From Trichocoleus desertorum ATA4-8-CV12 (lineage in GTDB: Bacteria; Cyanobacteriota; Cyanobacteriia; FACHB-46): DNA of 64,000 nt. Position 1 is the first letter of the stretch. Each line of letters begins with the position of its first letter. The notes beneath the pieces are model-generated. The model made no database searches, had not been told where the DNA came from, and was given only the letters and a program-made list of their open reading frames with translations. The stretch lies in contig JAHHIL010000001.1 of the NCBI GenBank assembly GCA_019358975.1, positions 372,001 through 436,000 of the forward strand. The letters run 5' to 3'. The translations under genes were made by a program, and so were the position numbers. Below, piece after piece: positions 4,663-59,219 of this stretch.

Positions 4663-7320
4663 CTAGGCGACTGCCTCATTAACCGGGAAGCGATCGATCA
4701 GTTGGATAGCTCGATAGGCATTCTGGCGTAGTGAATTTGGCACATGTGGGACATAGGGAATTTGAGACAGAAAATCTAAAGTTCGCCGCAAAATCCGCAC
4801 CACGTCGCCTTCATCTAAGCTGGTGTTTTCTCCCAGTTCCGCCCATTCCACCCCCAAAGCCCACTGCTCAACTAAAGCAATCAGCTCGTCTTCTAGCCAA
4901 ACGGGGAGCGCGACTTGATGCCGTCGTTGTACTTGGAACAACTGCCGTCGTAAGCCCCGCAACCCGCCTAAAGCTTCCTGGACTTCTGGGGAAGCATGAT
5001 AGCGAGTCCAACTATCAGGACGAGAAACTTCCGTGACTAATGCCGCACAAGTGGCTGCCAAATGGTGTGGGTCTAGATCATCGAGTTCTCCAGACATTAG
5101 AGAGAGACCTAGCCACAGCTCGTTGTCGCCCCGAATCGCTGCTGCTGCTTGCCCTAAAGGAGTTGGTATCAAGCCATCTAGACCCCCAAAGGTTTGCAAA
5201 ATCTCGATCAAATGGACAAATTCTTCCCAGTGCTGATGGGAGAGCTGCTCTAATTTGGCTTGGCGCTGAGCAATATCTTCTTGCAAATTCTGCACTCGGC
5301 GCTGCCGCTTTAACAGCGTGGCAGAATTACCCCATTGATGCAGAGGATGGGTTTCTACTTGAGCCTGGACAGCTTGTAAGCGTTCGAGTTGGGCCTGGAC
5401 TTCGGGGGCGGTTTCTGCAAGGGAGGGCACAGGGGGAATTTGCCGCGCGATCGCTCCAGTTTCTTCGTTGCCTTTGCGGCTTTGTCCCGGTTTCAACGGC
5501 ATCTCGGCTGGGGGCATCAGGTTGTCTACTGCCTTAATGCGAGGGATCTCTGCTCGCAAGCTGACCACATCTCCGACCGCTACGACATACCAGCGATTAT
5601 CTTGCCCCAGGCAAACGAGATAAGGGAATTGGCCCGAACCTGGAGTTTTCATCACCAGGGCGGCAGGTATCGGTTCGGCAGTAGGAACGTTCTCTCCCTT
5701 CAGCCCTAACACGGTGCCTGCGATCGCAAATGAAAGCGCGACTGCGATGTCACCCGATTGCATTTCCTGGGCTTGGTGCTGCAAGATTTTGAGCAGGCGG
5801 CGTTCTTCTTTCAGGCGCTCTTGCAGCTTTTCGTAACTAGAAAACAGTTGTGGGTCTACAAGTTCGAGTTGGGCTTGGAGTTGCTCCAGTTCTTTGTTCA
5901 GGTCCGCGATCGCCTGTTGTTGAGGTCGCAAAGACAGGGTAGCCAGATATTGCCCAAAACTGCGCTCCACTAGCTCTTGCGCTTCCTCTAAGGTGTGGGT
6001 TTGCAGCAAGTTCAAGACCATGCCATAGCTGGGGGTGAATTGGCTGATCAACGGGTCAGCCCCGATGGTGGCCAAGTAAGCCGCTTCTTTAGCCCCCTCA
6101 AAGGGAGTTTGCACCGTCACCACATGCCCCAACTCATCCATGCCCCGCCGACCTGCCCGACCTGACATCTGGAGAAATTCCGAAGGATTGAGCAAACGAT
6201 GTCCCAAGTCAGTGCGCTTGGAGAGGCTGGAAATCACGGTGGTGCGGGCAGGCATGTTGATGCCCGCAGCTAAGGTTTCGGTGGCAAAAACCACTTTGAT
6301 CAACCCTTGCTGAAAAAGCTCTTCGACTAAGCCCTTCCAGGCAGGCAAAATTCCGGCGTGGTGAGCGGCAATACCCCGGTAGAGCGGCTCAATTTGTCCA
6401 GCCCGCCCTGCATCAGGATGTCGCATCAAAAATTCATCAATCAGGTGTTTCAGCTTTGCTGCTTCTGCCTCGTTGACCAGCGACAAATGCTCGACTTGGG
6501 TAATGGCGCGATCGCAGTTGCGGCGGCTAAAGATGAAGTAGATTGCTGGAAGCATGTCCCGTTGCTGCAACTGGCTAACCACATAAGCCAGACTCGGTTC
6601 ATCCTCACGCTTGCGCTGACCTCGGCCCCCCTTAGGTTTTAGGCGAGGGCTGATTTTTTTTTGGTCTTGAGATAGGAGAGGAAATAAGCCCTTGGGATTG
6701 CAGAAGTGAAAGCGTAAGGGAACAGGTCGGAAGTCAGAGTAAATCAGCTCTGTGGGGCCATGTACCCGACCGATCCAGTCTGTGAGTTGATCGCTGTTGG
6801 CAACGGTGGCCGATAGCGCCACTAACTGGACATCTGGGGGGCAATAGATGATCGATTCTTCCCAGACCGTGCCCCGCTGGCGATCGTTCATGTAGTGGCA
6901 CTCGTCTAAGACTACCGCCTCTACCCCCACCATTGAGGTGCCGACTTCTCCGATGGGAGTGCCGTAGAGCATGTTTCGGAAGATTTCGGTCGTCATGACT
7001 AAAATCGGGGCTTCTCGGTTGATCGACACATCTCCCGTCAGCAGGCCGACTTGCTCAGCTCCAAAGCGATCGCGAAAATCTCGCAACTTCTGGTTAGATA
7101 GCGCTTTAAGGGGAGTTGTGTACAACACCCGCTTACCTTGGGCTAAAGCGCGATAGATGGCATACTCGCCAATTAACGTTTTGCCTGACCCCGTCGGCGC
7201 ACAGACCACGACCGAGCGTCCTGCATTCAGAGCTGCGATCGCTTGATACTGAAACGCATCTAATTCGAAGGGAAACAGCTCTCGTAAATTTAGTTCTGGC
7301 AGAGTAGAGGAAACGTTCAC
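4663..7320 (-). CDS. DEAD/DEAH-box RNA helicase of the Ski2/Mtr4 type
   Basis: ATP-dependent superfamily 2 helicase, 885 residues, likely acting on structured RNA during decay or maturation. Visible motifs: motif I APTGSGKT (about 41-48), motif Ia TTPLKALSNQK, motif II DECHYMND, motif III ALSATVAN, motif IV region YFIFSRRNC, motif V ATETLAAGINMPARTTV and motif VI QMSGRAGRRGMD. These are the signatures of the Ski2/Mtr4/Brr2 branch, and the C-terminal region resembles the DSHCT domain. A Gln/Glu-rich coiled-coil segment lies in the middle. The start is GTG at 7320, with no ATG before the helicase core. Cyanobacteria commonly encode one such protein; its RNA substrate is not established. Monocistronic here. 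Confidence 0.9.
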   Translation of the reverse strand: MNVSSTLPELNLRELFPFELDAFQYQAIAALNAGRSVVVCAPTGSGKTLIGEYAIYRALAQGKRVLYTTPLKALSNQKLRDFRDRFGAEQVGLLTGDVSINREAPILVMTTEIFRNMLYGTPIGEVGTSMVGVEAVVLDECHYMNDRQRGTVWEESIIYCPPDVQLVALSATVANSDQLTDWIGRVHGPTELIYSDFRPVPLRFHFCNPKGLFPLLSQDQKKISPRLKPKGGRGQRKREDEPSLAYVVSQLQQRDMLPAIYFIFSRRNCDRAITQVEHLSLVNEAEAAKLKHLIDEFLMRHPDAGRAGQIEPLYRGIAAHHAGILPAWKGLVEELFQQGLIKVVFATETLAAGINMPARTTVISSLSKRTDLGHRLLNPSEFLQMSGRAGRRGMDELGHVVTVQTPFEGAKEAAYLATIGADPLISQFTPSYGMVLNLLQTHTLEEAQELVERSFGQYLATLSLRPQQQAIADLNKELEQLQAQLELVDPQLFSSYEKLQERLKEERRLLKILQHQAQEMQSGDIAVALSFAIAGTVLGLKGENVPTAEPIPAALVMKTPGSGQFPYLVCLGQDNRWYVVAVGDVVSLRAEIPRIKAVDNLMPPAEMPLKPGQSRKGNEETGAIARQIPPVPSLAETAPEVQAQLERLQAVQAQVETHPLHQWGNSATLLKRQRRVQNLQEDIAQRQAKLEQLSHQHWEEFVHLIEILQTFGGLDGLIPTPLGQAAAAIRGDNELWLGLSLMSGELDDLDPHHLAATCAALVTEVSRPDSWTRYHASPEVQEALGGLRGLRRQLFQVQRRHQVALPVWLEDELIALVEQWALGVEWAELGENTSLDEGDVVRILRRTLDFLSQIPYVPHVPNSLRQNAYRAIQLIDRFPVNEAVA

Positions 7321-7869
7321 GCACTAAGTTCCAATCAGGTTGCGATCTATCTCAAGCGGCAAAATTTCTTGCGAAATTGGCCTACAATTCATCTTTTTAA
7401 TTGTAAACCGCAGCTACTAAAGCTGTTTGCTAGGATCGGCATCGTTGCCTTAAGAGAGAGCCAAGCTGAGCCAACTGTTACATTCAATAATCTTAATAAT
7501 TGATTGTGATTAAAAGCTGACCTTTATGAAGCTTAATCTAGGACAAATTAAAGCGCGATCGCCACTGCCTGACTGGATTCCTAAGGAATAGCAACCAAGG
7601 ATACAGCAGTAAATAGTTAATTGATCGTAAACTTGGCTACTGCTTTTAGGTAGATGACCATGAAGTTGAACGTGGGCTATAGTGTCTCAAGGATGAAGGG
7701 TTCCATCAACCTGAGTAAGTAATTCCTAATGCAACTGTGTTGATGTAGGAATTTCTTGATGTTATTTAGATAACACTCAAACATCATCTTTGCTCTGAAA
7801 TCGAACCGTCTTTTGATGACATTTTCCCCATCAAAAGGGCGTTGATTAAAACATTCAGTGGGTAGCCTA
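7321..7869. other. Long AT-rich gene-less stretch
   Basis: About 550 bases between the divergently transcribed helicase gene and the riboswitch leader. It should contain the helicase promoter (minus) and the promoter of the riboswitch transcript (plus). No tRNA or conserved gene seen. A minus-strand 67-codon open frame at 7677-7880 runs into the riboswitch and is not convincing as a gene. Confidence 0.5.
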
Positions 7870-8025
7870 ATCCGGATCAAAAGGCGTTAGGGTGAAAACC
7901 TGGTGCAGTTTGGTCTGGAACGGAGGAACCGATTTTTGGGGCTAATCTCAAAATTCAATTTGAGAGAGACACCTTCCAGTCTTAGCCCGTCAGCTAACTC
8001 CGTCGGCAGTGGGAGGAGTACCTAG
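7870..8025 (+). promoter_or_regulatory. c-di-AMP riboswitch (ydaO-yuaA type)
   Basis: The blocks conserved in the ydaO-yuaA class appear in order. At about 7913-7931 is TCTGGAACGGAGGAACCGA, matching the family's ...GAACcgGGGGAaCC segment. At about 7938-7949 is GGGGCTAATCTC, matching GGGGugAAUC. At about 7982-8006 is a block containing AGCCCGTCAGCTAACTCCGT then CGGC, matching the near-invariant CCGUCAGCUAACcuCGuAaGC. The family binds cyclic di-AMP and usually lowers downstream expression when ligand is high. The next gene on the same strand, a universal stress protein, starts about 125 bases downstream. Boundaries are approximate; I could not fold the RNA or define the expression platform, though CTAGGA and TCCTAG at about 8022 and 8060 could pair. 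Confidence 0.82.
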
Positions 8026-8149
8026 GACGCAGGCTTTTGATAGCAATGGTCGTTGCGGTCTCCTAGCAGATGTCAGATTTCTCTGGAAGTTGATGATGTC
8101 TGTTTCCTGGCCCACCTCTCGAAACAAGTAGTCTGGAGAGGTTTTCATC

Positions 8150-9001
8150 GTGAATATTATGCCAATGTTGGTGCGGCTCCAAGGCGCACTGGGTTCAACT
8201 GACTTAATCGATCAAATTTTGCTTTTGCCTCAGCGACCCAAAGGCGATCGCTCCTCTAGTAAGCTGCATCTCCCAGGCCGAACTCGGCGTGCTGCCAAAC
8301 GACACGTACAAGCCAACCACGCTACAGAAGTAGTCTCTGGAGCCGATGCCGAAATTAATTTAGTGGTGGGCTATAACAGCTCTCCCAAGAGTCAGACAGC
8401 TCTGGACTTGACCCTTTGGATCGCTCACCAAACCCGCTTAGCAACTCGTCGGCAAGTGACAGTTCAGGTGGTTTACGTCATCAACCCCGCCGATTGTTTA
8501 GATAGTATTCCCACTACGACTGATTTTCGTCAAGTCAGAGCTAGCAAAAAATCTGCTGCCAAACGTGCTGCCCAAATGCCTACCTTAGGGTCTGGCCTAG
8601 CGGTGGAATCCGATACCTATTCCGATACTTATAGTGATAGTGCAACTTTGGCTCGCGTCGGAGCGATCGCTACTTTGAATGAACCAACCCTAGAGGATGC
8701 TGGGCTACCCCTGAGCAAGTACCCAATGGGTCAGGCGCAGCAATTTGAGCAGGCAGACCAGATTTTGTGGCAAGCTCGCTGTCTCGCCAATGAGTGGCGC
8801 GGTTCCCTCAAAACGCACCTGCGCTTTGGGCAGGTCGCTCAAGAGTTGCGGAGTGTCGCGAAAGCAGAATCGGCAGTGCTGTTGTGGTTAGGTTGTGATT
8901 CCCCCAAGAATCCTATCGTGCGGACTCTAAGTGCTAACAGCCCTTGCCCGGTGCTAGGGGTGCCACCTGCACTCCACCGCGATCGCTACTTTGATGCCTA
9001 A
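8150..9001 (+). CDS. Universal stress protein family protein behind a c-di-AMP riboswitch
   Basis: 283 residues. A USP-like strand (INLVVGYNSSPKSQTALDLTLWIA, about 67-90) opens the domain, and the C-terminal part (about 200-280) has the USP second half: ILWQARCLANEW, LRFGQVAQELRSVAKAESAVLLWLGC, then SPCPVLGVPP. The middle (about 125-200) is a long low-complexity insert. The usual ATP-binding glycine signature G-2x-G-9x-G(S/T) is not intact, so it may bind no nucleotide or a different one. The GTG at 8150 follows TGGAGAGG by about 8 bases; ATG at 8159 is the alternative. The upstream riboswitch places it under c-di-AMP control, which in other bacteria relates to potassium and osmotic balance; a role there is inference. 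Confidence 0.75.
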   Translation: MNIMPMLVRLQGALGSTDLIDQILLLPQRPKGDRSSSKLHLPGRTRRAAKRHVQANHATEVVSGADAEINLVVGYNSSPKSQTALDLTLWIAHQTRLATRRQVTVQVVYVINPADCLDSIPTTTDFRQVRASKKSAAKRAAQMPTLGSGLAVESDTYSDTYSDSATLARVGAIATLNEPTLEDAGLPLSKYPMGQAQQFEQADQILWQARCLANEWRGSLKTHLRFGQVAQELRSVAKAESAVLLWLGCDSPKNPIVRTLSANSPCPVLGVPPALHRDRYFDA

Positions 9002-9013
9002 GCTGATTGGTAT

Positions 9014-11587
9014 CTACAGTCGTGGCAGAATTTCGGGTAGCAAATGACCTGGCAATAGAGATAGCGCTAAGTTCTGGCCTTGCAGACCGCACTCGCTGTA
9101 AAAAGCCCGTACTGTTTGTAGAACATAGCCTAGCGCTGTCTGGTGAAACTCAGGTTGTTGCTGCCATCCCTGTAAGGCTTGGAGATGGTGGCGCAGAGAT
9201 GCTTCTAAATGAGCAGACCGAGCAGGGACAGGGATAGCACCTGCTTGGTTAGTCGCCACTTGGTAGTGGGCTAAACCCAGATTGTTGTGAGTGGCATACA
9301 AATCAAACGTGAGCTTAGTGCCAGCGCCCTGAGGAGTTTGGTTCAGTTGTTCTACGGTGCTTAAAGCGGTTTCATAAGCTGCGATCGCCGATCGTAATGC
9401 TGCCTGATAAGCTTCAGGTTGGTCTTTAGAGCGGTTAGCGAGGTGCCAGTAAGCTGTGCCTAAATTGTTTTGTGTCGCAGCATAGGCGGCGGGATTTACC
9501 TCGGCAGTGCGATAAATCAGGGCAATGCGGTAGCAACTAATAGCCAAATTGAGAAACTCTTCCGGTTGCTCGTGCTGGGCCAAATTCCAGTAAGCCGTGC
9601 CCAAATTGTTTTGGATCATGGCGTAGTGCAATGGCTCTTGCTCTGGATTGTAGAAGCTGAGCGATTCGTTGTAGGCGACAATGGCTTGCTTGAGATGCAA
9701 GGCGGGTTGATGGTGTTGCGCCAAGTGCCAGTAAGCCGTACCCAGATTATTTTGGGTTGAAGCATACTTTGACGGTTCTGACTCTGGCTTGCGATGGCGC
9801 AGTGCTTCCTCGTAGGCGGTAATCGAGCATTGCAAATTCTCGATTGGTTCTCGGTAGCGGGCTAAGTCTCCATAGGCTGCCCCTAGGTTGTTCTGAATCA
9901 TGGCGTAGGATTGCGGCTGCTGCTCCGAACTAATGTGAGTCAGCGCTAAGTGGTAAGCAGCAATGCCTTGCTCCAAATAAAGCAACCGTTGTTCGGGGGT
10001 GGGAGGAAACCGAGACAACATCCAATAGAGATTGCCTAGGTCATTGAGAATATCGGGAACTAAAGCCGAAGATTCTTCCAAATGAATTAAAGCTTGTTCG
10101 TAGGCTTGAATTGCGATCGCCAACTGTTGGGGAGAATTGTGTCCTTGCTCAATGCGATCGCGATAAAAATTACCCAGAGTGCGATAGTTAACGGCTAGTG
10201 CGGTAGTTTCAGCTTGCTGCTGATGTAATTGCTCTAGATGCCGCAACATCCGTAAAGGTGGAAAGTCTTCTAAAGCGGCAACTAAGGGAGCAGGTAAAGT
10301 AGTGTGGAGGCGGGAGAGAGAGGGAACTGGAGTATTGGCTGGTAGCGCTGCCGTTCCCCCTATCTCTTGGATCGCCGCTGTCAGAATCAAATTGACAAGT
10401 TCGGTGGCAATCGCTGGGAGCAGACCCTCCGGCGCGGAATTGGTTAACTCTGATTGGTTTGCTGTTGGGCTTGGTATTGGGCTTGCTGTCGGGGCAACAG
10501 ACGCTTGAGATTTAGGCTCCGGTGCAACCGTAGGAACTGGCTGCGGTTCTGAAGCGGGTGGTTCTGAGTGGAACCCAGAGCGAGCGGGTAGGTTGTTGAC
10601 TGTGAACTGGCTCGTCGGCGTGGCACCACTAGAAACATGAACGCTCCAAGAGTTGGGTGCAGAAGAGACTGGAGCAGTAGCTAAACGATCGTTTGTCGTT
10701 TCTCCTGTCGTTGCCTCTGGGGCTGCATCCGACTCGTCCCCCAAGTTGCCAAAGGCTAACTCTTCCGCCAATAAATCCCGTAAACTAATTGGTGCATCTG
10801 CGGGCTGCTGGTTGGCAGGTGTGACCGAAAGAGGCGTAGCGGGAGCTGCGATCGCGGGTTGGGAGCGCTTTGGAGTGGGCTGAGCGGGGAGAGTGGCTGA
10901 CTGGCCTGAATGACTGTGTTTGGGTTGGGAAGCAATGACTGAAAGCGGTGTGGGTTCTCCGACAAACTCAAATACGCCAGTACGCCAACCCCAAAATTCT
11001 GGAGCAGACTGTTGAATTGCTCGAAACCAGGGATGAGGCACCCACAGCAACAAGCTGGCTTCCAAAGTGGGTAAGCTGCGATCGCACCCTTGGAGGTAGC
11101 TGAGAAACAGCCGCTGTACCGCAGCCGATTGTCGCGTCAGGCGCTCAGTCCCCAAAATCTGGAAGCTGGGGGTCAATGACTCTGTTCCCGATCCTTTCGG
11201 TAACGGATGACGAGCTAACCACTGACCCACCTGAGCGATCGGATTGGGGTCGTTGAGGTTGAGGTTGAGCGTGACGAGTTGAGGGTAATCTGAAGCAGGC
11301 CCAGCCTCTACAGGGTGACGTGCGGTTGCCGAGGCAGCAGGATAGGCGAGTTCAGCATGGAGCCGAGCTGCTAAGCGATTCCGTAGGGCTAGATCATCGC
11401 AGACCGCCACAAAAATTTGACGGCGTAAGTGTAAACTCAGCGCTCGCTTTAAACGCTGATAACTTTGCCGATTCAAATGTGAACTGGTTTGATTCGGCCC
11501 AGTCATGCGGAGCAATGGGGAGTGGCGATCAGCTAGTTGCACCAACAATACCCTTAATCGTGGCGAGGAAATCTGGAGGTATAACAC
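9014..11587 (-). CDS. Large tetratricopeptide-repeat protein with degenerate NTPase-like N-terminus
   Basis: 857 residues in three parts. Residues about 38-205 look like a P-loop-type fold (QIFVAVCDDLALRNRLAARL, LVTLNLNLND, FQILGTERLT, ASLLLWVPHPWF, APEFWGWRTGVFEF) but have no Walker A glycine loop. The APEFWGWRTGVFEF segment resembles the end of the NTPase region in some cyanobacterial STAND-type proteins. Residues about 210-400 are a Pro/Ser/Ala/Thr-rich linker. The rest contains at least six TPRs with the recurring NNLGTAYWHLAQ and AIAAYEEAL signatures, so it probably scaffolds other proteins. GTG at 11587 has GAGGAA upstream; ATG at 11506 is the alternative. It converges with the USP gene, stop codons about 12 bases apart. 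Function unknown. Confidence 0.75.
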   Translation of the reverse strand: MLYLQISSPRLRVLLVQLADRHSPLLRMTGPNQTSSHLNRQSYQRLKRALSLHLRRQIFVAVCDDLALRNRLAARLHAELAYPAASATARHPVEAGPASDYPQLVTLNLNLNDPNPIAQVGQWLARHPLPKGSGTESLTPSFQILGTERLTRQSAAVQRLFLSYLQGCDRSLPTLEASLLLWVPHPWFRAIQQSAPEFWGWRTGVFEFVGEPTPLSVIASQPKHSHSGQSATLPAQPTPKRSQPAIAAPATPLSVTPANQQPADAPISLRDLLAEELAFGNLGDESDAAPEATTGETTNDRLATAPVSSAPNSWSVHVSSGATPTSQFTVNNLPARSGFHSEPPASEPQPVPTVAPEPKSQASVAPTASPIPSPTANQSELTNSAPEGLLPAIATELVNLILTAAIQEIGGTAALPANTPVPSLSRLHTTLPAPLVAALEDFPPLRMLRHLEQLHQQQAETTALAVNYRTLGNFYRDRIEQGHNSPQQLAIAIQAYEQALIHLEESSALVPDILNDLGNLYWMLSRFPPTPEQRLLYLEQGIAAYHLALTHISSEQQPQSYAMIQNNLGAAYGDLARYREPIENLQCSITAYEEALRHRKPESEPSKYASTQNNLGTAYWHLAQHHQPALHLKQAIVAYNESLSFYNPEQEPLHYAMIQNNLGTAYWNLAQHEQPEEFLNLAISCYRIALIYRTAEVNPAAYAATQNNLGTAYWHLANRSKDQPEAYQAALRSAIAAYETALSTVEQLNQTPQGAGTKLTFDLYATHNNLGLAHYQVATNQAGAIPVPARSAHLEASLRHHLQALQGWQQQPEFHQTALGYVLQTVRAFYSECGLQGQNLALSLLPGHLLPEILPRL

Positions 11588-55969: not shown

Positions 55970-56719
55970 TTAGACCTTACCAAAGCGGCGATGTCGTTGC
56001 TGGTAGGCACATAAAGCTTGGTGAAACTCGGCGCGATCGAAGTCAGGCCAGAGTGTCTCTGTCACGTAAAGCTCAGAGTACGCCATTTGCCAGAGCAGAA
56101 AATTGCTCAACCTCATCTCGCCGCTGGTTCGAATCAGCAAGTCAGGATCACCGACTCCTGCCGTATAAAGGTGGCGCTCAAACACCGCCTCATCAATATC
56201 TTCTGGTTGCAAGTGTCCCTGCTGGACTTGAGTGGCGATCGCCCGACAAGCTTGCACAATTTCCTGCCGCCCTCCGTAATTAGTGGCGACTGTAAAGTGA
56301 ATTCCCGAATTATGCAGGGTTTCAGTCATAGAGCGCTCAATTTCGGTGCGCAAAGACTGCGGCAGAGCGTCCAAATTACCCACAAAGGTAATCCGCACGT
56401 TTTCTTCCATCATTTCGCGGAGTTCTTGCCGCAGCACCCGCTCAAACAGCGTCATTAAGAAGTCAACTTCCTCGAACGGGCGTCCCCAATTCTCGGTAGA
56501 AAAGGCATAAGCTGTGAGACCTTGCACCCCCCAATCTCGACAGCAGCGCAGCAGATCCTTCAGCGCGTCAACTCCTCGGCGGTGCCCCATAATGCGCGGT
56601 AGGCCCTGGCGCTTGGCCCAGCGACCATTACCATCCATAATCACAGCGACATGCTTAGGTAGCCGCTCTCGCTCTAGATCAGTGGGCAGATCTTGTAAGA
56701 TGGTTGGCTTTGCAGTCAT
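55970..56719 (-). CDS. uppS: Isoprenyl transferase (undecaprenyl diphosphate synthase)
   Basis: 249 residues, a cis-prenyltransferase that builds the C55 lipid carrier for cell-wall synthesis. Motifs: [26 protein letters not shown] with the catalytic Asp, [30 protein letters not shown] and the end [37 protein letters not shown]. The ATG overlaps the cdaA stop by 4 bases. The order lysA-cdaA-uppS is often conserved in cyanobacteria. Confidence 0.96.
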
Positions 56720-57639
56720 TTTTTCTCCCGAGGAGCCGACGAGGGCAGACGAAATAAACGTGAAATGATGGCCAATCCTTGAGACCTGATTTGGCGACCA
56801 AAGTTGCGTAAATCTGAGGCGACTGCTTCACGATCAACTGAGGGAGAGAAGCTCGCTTCTAATAATTCTTTCAGTTTACTGCTGGTCAGAGGCCGATTCA
56901 GTGTTCCCCGTTCCGCTAACGAAATTGAACCTGTTTCTTCAGATACAACAATACACATACAATTTTCGATCCGCTCTGTGATCCCCATTGCAGCTCGGTG
57001 GCGTGTCCCCAACTGCCGGGAAGCAGTGCGTTCAGAAATTGGCAAAATGACACCCGCTGCGACGATGCGAGAGGCTCGGATTAAAACGGCACCATCGTGG
57101 AGCAGGGTGGTGGGTTGAAATAGAGTTTGGATCAGTTCTTTCGAGACTTCGGCGTTCAGCCTCACCCCTGGTACTGAGAAATCACGCTCATCGATGGGGC
57201 CGCTGGTTTCTAGAATCAGTAAGGCACCAATACGGCTCTGAGACAGCTCCTTCACAGCATCCACAATTTCATCAATCACGTTGTCAGGTTTGGGAATGGC
57301 CCGACGTGAGGGCTGAAATAATTGCAGAATTTCACCCCGCCCCAACTGTTCGAGGAGACGGCGAAATTCTGCTTGCAGAATAAATGCCATCGAGACAGCA
57401 GAGCCAATCACCAAACTGTTTAAAACGAAACTCAAGAGCTTGAGCTTCAAGTTGGCACTGACGGCTGCGGCTAGCATGAGGATAATGAATCCCCGTACCA
57501 TCCAGAGTGTCCGGCGCTCGCCAATAATGATGAGCACCATATACGTCAGGACGAGTACTAATCCAATATCAATAATTTGAAGCAGCAAAGACTGAGTCCA
57601 ACTTGGATCAGCCAGCCATCGCTTCCACAATTGTCCCAT
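56716..57639 (-). CDS. cdaA: Diadenylate cyclase CdaA
   Basis: Makes the second messenger c-di-AMP from two ATP. 307 residues: three N-terminal membrane helices ([59 protein letters not shown]), then the DAC domain (about 120-255) with the ATP-binding LLHDGAVLI (DGA, near 181) and [20 protein letters not shown] (RHR, near 212). Both motifs are intact. It lies between lysA (174 bases upstream) and uppS (4-base overlap). c-di-AMP controls potassium and osmolyte uptake and links to cell-wall precursor supply; the riboswitch near 7870 is a likely target. Confidence 0.95.
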
Positions 57640-57812
57640 CAGAACCTGAATGACGCTTGTGCCTCAACGTGGAGAACTGAGAGGCTTGCAGTCTTCTAGC
57701 CTCCCAGTTGCCAGTCAAGAATATCTCGGTTGAGCCTTGTGTAACTCACTGCGTGGTCTCCTGAGAGTGGAAGAACTAGCCAACAAGCTAGCTCCCAATC
57801 AGGTTTGCGGGG

Positions 57813-59219
57813 TTAGGCCGTCAATCCGCCTAGGCGCTCTGGTAGGCGATCCTGTCGAATTAAATCTTGGTAAGTTTCCCGCTGCAGGATCAGGTTGGCT
57901 TCTCCAGCTCTCACTAAAACTGCTGCCGGACGGGGCAACCGATTGTAGTTAGAAGCCATGCTGTAATTGTAGGCTCCTGTGCCCATTACGACGAGAGTGT
58001 CACCGGGTTCTGTTTGGGGAAGGCGGGCTTCCTTGATCAAGATATCGCCTGATTCGCAGTGCTTCCCTGCGATCGCCACTGTCTCAGACATCGCTGCTGA
58101 CATTTTGTTCGCAACCACAGCTCGGTAAACCGATTGGTACGTAATGGGGCGGGGGTTGTCAGACATGCCACCATCTACGGTGACATAGGTGCGAATATCG
58201 GGCACAGTCTTTTGGCTACCCATTGTGTAAGCGGTGACGCAGGTTGGGCCAACGAGCGATCGCCCTGGTTCGGAAAGCAATTTGGGTAGAGCGATATTTT
58301 GCGCTTGGCAAGCCGCCGCGATCGCCTCACTAATCACTTTTACCCAGGCACTGATGCTGGGGGGATCATCCGATTCGGTGTAGCGAATGCCTAAACCACC
58401 CCCAATATTGAGTTCTTGAATGGAGAGACCGTAACCTGCGGCTTTGCTCAGCCATTGCACCATCACCCCTGCTAAATCTTGGTGAGGTTGCAGTTCAAAA
58501 ATTTGGGAGCCAATATGAGCATGCAAACCAGCACAATTTAGGGTGGGTTGCTGGCTGACAAAGGTGAATACTTCATCCAGTTGGTTAGGATCAAAGCCGA
58601 ACTTGCTGTCTAGATGTCCAGTGCGAATGTATTCGTGAGTGTGGCACTCGATTCCAGGGGTCAAGCGCAACAAAATGCGGATGGGTGTTTCTCTAGCAGG
58701 CATGCCTGCGAGGGTTTGCAACTCTAGCCAGTTATCAACCACAATGTTGCAGCCGGAATCCACGGCAAACTCTAGTTCTGCCACGGATTTGTTGTTGCCA
58801 TGAAAATAAATTTTGTCAGGGCTGACTCCTGCTTGCAGCGCTGTGTACAGCTCACCGCCAGAAACCACATCAATGCCCAATCCTTCGCTGGCCGCGATCG
58901 CGCAGATAGCTAGACAACTCCAAGCTTTGGAGGCATAAAGAACCTGAGACTCACCAGGGTAGTATTGCTTAAAAGCCTCGCGGTATTGACGGCAAGTTGC
59001 CCGCAGCGTTTCTTCGTCCACGATGTAAAGTGGCGAGCCAAATTGCTGCACCAAGTTTGTAACATCACAACCCCCAATTTCCAGGTGATCTTGCTCGTTG
59101 ACTTGAGCCGTGAGGGGCAGAAGAAATTGGTTGGGGGATCGGGTAGCCGCAGCATCTCCAGGGGCAGGTAAATACTGACGGCCAGAGTTCTGAACCTCCA
59201 CAGAGTAAGTCGATACCAT
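57813..59219 (-). CDS. lysA: Diaminopimelate decarboxylase
   Basis: 468 residues, PLP enzyme converting meso-DAP to lysine. Motifs: VLYASKAWSCLAICAIAASEGLGIDVVSGGELYTAL with the PLP-binding Lys, KIYFHGNNKS, GLHAHIGSQIFE, LNIGGGLGIRY, LSEPGRSLVG and the CESGDIL catalytic Cys-loop, then TGAYNYSMASNYNRLPRPAAVLV. The N-terminal about 40 residues are unconserved. It lies first in a lysA-cdaA-uppS series. A hairpin in the gap to cdaA (ACTG/CAGT and GAGGCT/AGCCTC at 57676-57708) could tune read-through. Confidence 0.96.
   Translation of the reverse strand: MVSTYSVEVQNSGRQYLPAPGDAAATRSPNQFLLPLTAQVNEQDHLEIGGCDVTNLVQQFGSPLYIVDEETLRATCRQYREAFKQYYPGESQVLYASKAWSCLAICAIAASEGLGIDVVSGGELYTALQAGVSPDKIYFHGNNKSVAELEFAVDSGCNIVVDNWLELQTLAGMPARETPIRILLRLTPGIECHTHEYIRTGHLDSKFGFDPNQLDEVFTFVSQQPTLNCAGLHAHIGSQIFELQPHQDLAGVMVQWLSKAAGYGLSIQELNIGGGLGIRYTESDDPPSISAWVKVISEAIAAACQAQNIALPKLLSEPGRSLVGPTCVTAYTMGSQKTVPDIRTYVTVDGGMSDNPRPITYQSVYRAVVANKMSAAMSETVAIAGKHCESGDILIKEARLPQTEPGDTLVVMGTGAYNYSMASNYNRLPRPAAVLVRAGEANLILQRETYQDLIRQDRLPERLGGLTA

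Follow-up and report, generated by a model that had tools for sequence, protein, structure and literature searches.

A c-di-AMP riboswitch precedes a universal stress protein gene in Trichocoleus desertorum and other cyanobacteria and likely acts on translation

Does a c-di-AMP riboswitch control a universal stress protein (USP) gene in cyanobacteria, and if so, by what mechanism and to what end? The question is raised by a locus in a 64-kb stretch of Trichocoleus desertorum ATA4-8-CV12 DNA (the window), in which an element of the ydaO-yuaA type stands ahead of a USP-family gene. To our knowledge, the list of c-di-AMP effectors in cyanobacteria is short. In our main reading, to which we give a probability of roughly 0.6, the leader of the USP gene would be a translational c-di-AMP riboswitch that switches OFF via a hairpin over the ribosome site (H3), braced by a further helix (P0), and the USP would be an effector of the osmotic regulon.

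The Rfam scan of the window gave two matches above the cut-off, one tRNA and one c-di-AMP riboswitch (RF00379) at 7887-8020 on the plus strand (64.0 bits, E 1.6e-12). The latter spans positions 1-134 of the 134 in the model, with the conserved core, and lies well above the gathering score of 38. Downstream, the ORF at 8150-9001 on the plus strand, which encodes a protein of 283 aa from a GTG start, matched PF00582 (Usp) at 30.1 bits, above the cut-off of 24. The sequence-only reading, which had placed a ydaO-yuaA riboswitch ahead of a USP-family gene, was thus correct about both elements.

Rfam misplaces the 5' end of this aptamer because of its long P2 insert, and the Rfam alignment holds two non-standard P1 pairs. 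The P1 5' strand, GCCUAAUC, lies at 7865-7872, a placement shared by roughly 90 of the 127 relatives from cyanobacteria, and GCC at 7865-7867 pairs with GGC at 8005-8007. In most of the relatives, the P1 strand GCC(U)AAU stands about 24-73 nt 5' of the core GGAGGAACC, with a long P2 hairpin in between. The region 7862-8010 folds as expected for the full aptamer (-54.1 kcal/mol, z -3.7), and none of 200 shuffles folded as well. From the RF00379 match, the P1 strand (GCCTAA in relatives), and the fold z, the aptamer was placed at 7865-8009 on the plus strand. Judged by its sequence, the element is a genuine c-di-AMP riboswitch with predicted ligand binding. The aptamer itself is ordinary, since it passes the gathering score and contains the conserved core of the ydaO/yuaA family (RF00379). 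It is the target and the platform that are unusual: the riboswitch faces a stand-alone USP, and its platform is a Shine-Dalgarno (SD)-sequestering hairpin with a leader-specific 5' bracket strand, unlike the terminators of Bacillus ydaO/yuaA.

The genes that flank the USP gene both run on the opposite, minus strand; one encodes a DSHCT-type helicase (4663-7320) and the other a TPR protein (9014-11587). The USP gene is therefore a single-gene unit. A CdaA-type diadenylate cyclase, a source of the ligand, had also been noticed in the window from the letters alone; its DAC domain was recovered at 56716-57639 (PF02457, E 3.3e-38), on the minus strand. This gene lies 48 kb from the USP gene within an ordinary-looking lysA-cdaA-uppS neighborhood (55970-59219, minus strand), where the genes for a lysA-like PLP-dependent decarboxylase, CdaA, and undecaprenyl diphosphate synthase adjoin. 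Cyanobacteria generally carry a diadenylate cyclase, so the presence of CdaA in the same window adds little.

For the expression platform, 28 leaders were aligned from the aptamer to the start codon. In hairpin H1 (8014-8064, plus strand), the aptamer tail AGGAG (8014-8018) pairs with CUCCU (8060-8064); 95% of the cells are paired, with 10 double-sided changes, all at one pair. In hairpin H3 (8114-8142, plus strand; -11.5 kcal/mol), ACCUCUC (8114-8120) pairs with GAGAGGU (8136-8142); 96.9% of the cells are paired, with compensatory C-G to U-A changes. H3 contains the SD sequence GAGAGG (8136-8141, plus strand), located 8 nt before the GTG, and the spacing from SD to start is 6-9 nt in all 44 GTDB leaders with H3. 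Jointly, H1 and H3 showed 96.1% standard pairs and 17 compensatory cells, which none of 500 shuffles equaled, and slid control versions of the pairing dropped to 37-58%. Both hairpins were recovered unprompted by RNAalifold. A covarying H3 that buries the SD suggests that the USP is most likely controlled at the level of translation. We considered and rejected an anti-sequester helix between GGGAGG of the aptamer tail and CCUCUC, the 5' arm of H3: 92% of the cells pair, but covariation did not exceed that of shuffles, and at one position the pair is broken in 12 of the 28 leaders.

The anti-SD arm of H3 was present in 40 of the 49 leaders with an adjacent riboswitch, compared with 1 of the 18 whose riboswitch is far upstream (Fisher p 1e-8, a value inflated by the relatedness of the leaders). 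A far-upstream riboswitch typically stands before an ABC operon, and the USP leader there often keeps GAGAGG with the arm missing. On the USP tree, this association amounts to about two supported independent changes, mostly concordant but too few for significance.

A possible connection between the aptamer and H3 was found immediately 5' of P1. The strand GUGGGU at 7858-7863 (plus strand), beside P1, is complementary to GCCCAC at 8110-8115, and in general to (A/G)CCCAC running straight into the anti-SD arm. This candidate helix, P0, comprises 4 general pairs (GGGU with ACCC) and 6 in the window; Nostoc-type leaders keep only 4 of the 6. The motif G[TC]GGG was present in 25 of the 37 USP-class riboswitches but in 0 of 21 permease and 0 of 40 ABC leaders. 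Among 77 distinct leaders, 58 had both the P0 5' strand and the CCC-hairpin arm, 16 had neither, and 3 were discordant; on the USP tree, the association of P0 with H3 reflects about two supported independent changes, nearly all as expected, and is not significant. The 4-pair P0 abuts H3 without a gap, and the two could therefore stack as one helix. These features suggest that P0 probably couples the aptamer to the ribosome site, which would be a simple RNA mechanism, in which a bracket helix connects the aptamer with a remote ribosome site. Thermodynamic folding closed H3 with or without an available aptamer tail and did not reveal the route from ligand to SD: in the USP leaders, the SD was unpaired at 0.16 with the tail present and 0.14 with it withheld, compared with 0.41 and 0.19 in 11 permease leaders.

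The permease leaders, presumably of the type of the Synechocystis slr0753 riboswitch (same phylum and same aptamer; PMC10117731), also have an SD hairpin, but of a compact kind. In L078 (G012:C3:103659) and L091 (G059:C352:46339), for example, a compact AUCUCCUGG...CCAGGAGAU lies directly before the ATG, so that the H1 strand can double as the SD mask; by inspection, this is a clean two-state translational switch. The anti-SD arm of the permease leaders is apparently the H1 strand, whereas the USP leaders have the extra hairpin and P0.

In the proposed mechanism, high c-di-AMP would close P1 of the aptamer, and the adjacent 7858-7863 would then pair with 8110-8115. P0 would stack end to end on H3 and keep the ribosome site shut. 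At low c-di-AMP, the P0 brace would be lost and H3 weakened, and the USP would be made, to act as an effector in the c-di-AMP osmotic regulon. The validated c-di-AMP riboswitches of Bacillus are OFF switches, and by analogy with these we guess that the sign here is likely also OFF. The reverse, in which c-di-AMP binding opens H3 and the USP is made at high c-di-AMP, seems rather unlikely to us, although some features would suit it. For example, P0 can extend to take A8114/C8115 from H3, weakening the SD hairpin, and H3 is closed by default in folding, where a default-closed site needs an opener. Besides the Bacillus precedent, two observations argue against an ON switch. In the permease-class leaders, it is the freed tail that opens the SD, as an OFF switch would, and the conserved P0 core lies outside H3, which favors stacking over competition.

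Control might also be transcriptional, if H3 or H1 terminated transcription or caused a Rho/NusA-dependent pause; the riboswitch would then set the length of the mRNA. Bacillus c-di-AMP riboswitches act by termination, and UUUU follows H3 in the window. However, the search for an intrinsic terminator 3' of the aptamer was negative, and five or more T within the 8 nt after H3 occurred in only 3 of the 44 leaders, so H3 is not a terminator. H3 also overlaps the SD at a fixed distance from the start. These observations make transcriptional control improbable, and we retain the translational OFF switch as the preferred reading.

The USP itself comprises an N-terminal segment (1-27) and a core (about 66-112 and 193-273) that is split by a disordered insert (about 113-192). 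Within the family, the N-terminal segment (V/M-N-I-x-P-M-L-x-R-L-Q...) is conserved and the insert variable; near-invariant residues include Y75, S81, Y109, W216, H223, R225, and G248-C249. The AlphaFold2 model had a mean pLDDT of 71, with about 88-95 in the core, and its fold matched MJ0577 (1mjh; Z 15.6), TeaD (Z 14.2), and the c-di-AMP-bound USP domain of KdpD (7ji4; Z 11.7). PF00582 was matched at E 0.01 or better by 30 of the 31 family members examined. In the T. desertorum genome, the general model gave 15 Usp-domain matches, and the riboswitch-linked USP is not among the matches listed, which indicates how divergent this USP is. NCBIfam holds no family for it, and a PDB sequence search with the protein and its profile returned chance matches only.

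Is the USP itself a receptor for a nucleotide? From the letters alone, it had been credited with a degenerate ATP signature and a long insert, both of which proved real in the alignment and the AlphaFold2 model, and it had been suggested that it might bind another nucleotide, even c-di-AMP. USP domains of KdpD do bind c-di-AMP (PMC4686210, PMC8214093), and the motif for this is (A/G/C)xSxSxxN(Y/F) (PMC8214093). If the USP bound c-di-AMP or another adenine nucleotide, the riboswitch would be a feedback on its own sensor, and the fold match to 7ji4 and the conservation of G248, the Gly that opens the nucleotide loop, with nearby Cys and His would agree with this. However, the KdpD-type motif was found in 0 of 36 aligned members, and the Walker-type ATP loop GxxGx9G(S/T), the criterion for ATP-binding USPFG members, in 0 of the 67 alignment rows. 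Because both motifs are absent, ligand binding by the USP is not supported, and we regard the feedback as quite improbable. The protein resembles the KdpD domain (7ji4, PMC8214093) in having a USP fold without a Walker motif and in belonging to a c-di-AMP network, but the latter is a domain of a histidine kinase and carries the motif that is missing here.

The pairing of riboswitch and USP was then surveyed in a sample of 291 genomes of the class. RF00379 was detected in 156 and the USP family in 108 (about 37%); an RF00379 element anywhere was found in 104 of the 108 genomes with the USP, compared with 52 of the 183 without it. In 95 of the 108, the element was upstream of the USP on the same strand, adjacent (<1.5 kb) in 85 and at 1.5-8 kb in 10. 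No RF00379 was detected upstream of the USP in 13 of the 108, so the link appears dispensable in some lineages; in at least two of these (G122, G158), a contig end lies no more than about 3 kb upstream. A scan of GTDB contigs gave 235 USP relatives. All 80 loci that were kept are cyanobacterial by title, including Nostoc, Anabaena, Microcoleus, Leptolyngbya, and Fischerella, and 67 of the 80 have the aptamer motif upstream of the USP. The RF00379-USP pairing recurs in dozens of cyanobacterial genera. That the adjacency is incidental, with a leftover riboswitch ahead of a gene no longer controlled, would accord with the 13 genomes without a detected element but is hardly credible, given the adjacency retained in 85 genomes, the covarying platform hairpin, and the leader-specific P0 strand.

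Cyanobacterial c-di-AMP riboswitches have been described for slr0753 and osmoprotectant genes (PMC10117731, PMC5986932). The sequence-only reading had called direct control of a USP-family gene little described. This held insofar as no USP was named among the cyanobacterial targets in the literature searched, although earlier target supplements may already list one; as for occurrence, the arrangement is the commonest one for this family.

Genes up to about 8 kb downstream of 141 riboswitches were surveyed, and three groups made up most of the targets: the USP (58 regions), a CitMHS/ArsB-like permease of 447 aa (47), and an ABC transporter (about 45) with an NrtB-like permease, an NMT1_2 binding protein, and an NrtCD-like ATPase. 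By kind and size, the CitMHS/ArsB-like permease is probably of the type of Synechocystis Slr0753, for which riboswitch control has been reported (PMC10117731). RF00379 was upstream of 73 of the 97 ABC transporters of this kind. In 28 genomes, the USP gene comes just 3' of the ABC genes, without exception in the same orientation, and the odds ratio for the co-occurrence of USP and transporter is 14; 35 genomes have the USP without the transporter, and 24 the transporter without the USP. The genomes counted here, like the leaders, are related and so do not represent independent cases. In the T. desertorum genome, the ABC genes are on another contig than the USP, behind their own riboswitch, which is the second and only further RF00379 element of the genome (G000:C12:24570-24727; L001, L168). 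No match to the Slr0753-type permease was found in this genome, and its regulon therefore seems to consist of the USP and the ABC transporter only. The window USP may be the regulator of this transporter.

A precedent is TeaD, the USP of the ectoine transporter TeaABC in Halomonas elongata. Its gene stands beside that of the osmolyte transporter, for whose regulation by TeaD there is evidence (PMC5549992), and the fold of the USP studied here, transporter-linked in the 28 genomes, matches that of TeaD. On the other hand, TeaABC is a TRAP transporter and the linked transporter here an ABC transporter, and the window USP differs from TeaD in its missing nucleotide motif and its riboswitch. Because of the gene linkage and this precedent, a transporter-regulating role is our best guess: by analogy, the NrtBCD-like ABC transporter most likely has the USP as a regulatory partner. 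A more far-reaching proposal, possible but doubtful, is that of a cyanobacterial riboswitch subclass that acts on translation by means of P0, a helix enclosing the entire leader and stacked on the SD hairpin; its target would be a dedicated USP lineage that tunes the ABC transporter, itself under c-di-AMP control. If true, one second messenger would set the amounts of both an osmolyte-type transporter and its protein regulator. The pairing ties the USP to c-di-AMP signaling in salt and osmotic responses, and would add a soluble regulator to a c-di-AMP regulon of permeases and osmolyte uptake. The tight link to a riboswitch also gives an otherwise anonymous, uncharacterized USP family a testable function.

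Several further arrangements were seen around these riboswitches. Clusters with two riboswitches, one before the ABC genes and one between ABC and USP, occur in G086, G096, G106, and G115, and also in G126, G190, G211, G224, and others. Divergent pairs about 300 bp apart were found in L108 (G246:C351:16898 minus and 17378 plus) and L149 (G065:C3:2587 minus and 3056 plus), where one riboswitch faces the USP and its partner a protein of 259 aa (cluster c23) with a seemingly S4-type RNA-binding end. An NsiR1 small RNA (RF02399; L201, 4556-4620) lies a few kilobases from the riboswitch-USP locus in one genome (G024). In L089 (G195:C19:100868) and L109 (G183:C1:4752153), the riboswitch precedes a fusion of a Na+/H+ exchanger with Usp and PTS EIIA_2 domains, a further link from c-di-AMP to a Usp domain; in G195, a second small Usp gene precedes the exchanger fusion. 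Finally, the riboswitch stands before an apparent M23-type peptidase in L119 (G103:C104:9423) and L147 (G093:C1:1448089), which recalls the cell-wall targets of Firmicutes and Actinobacteria.
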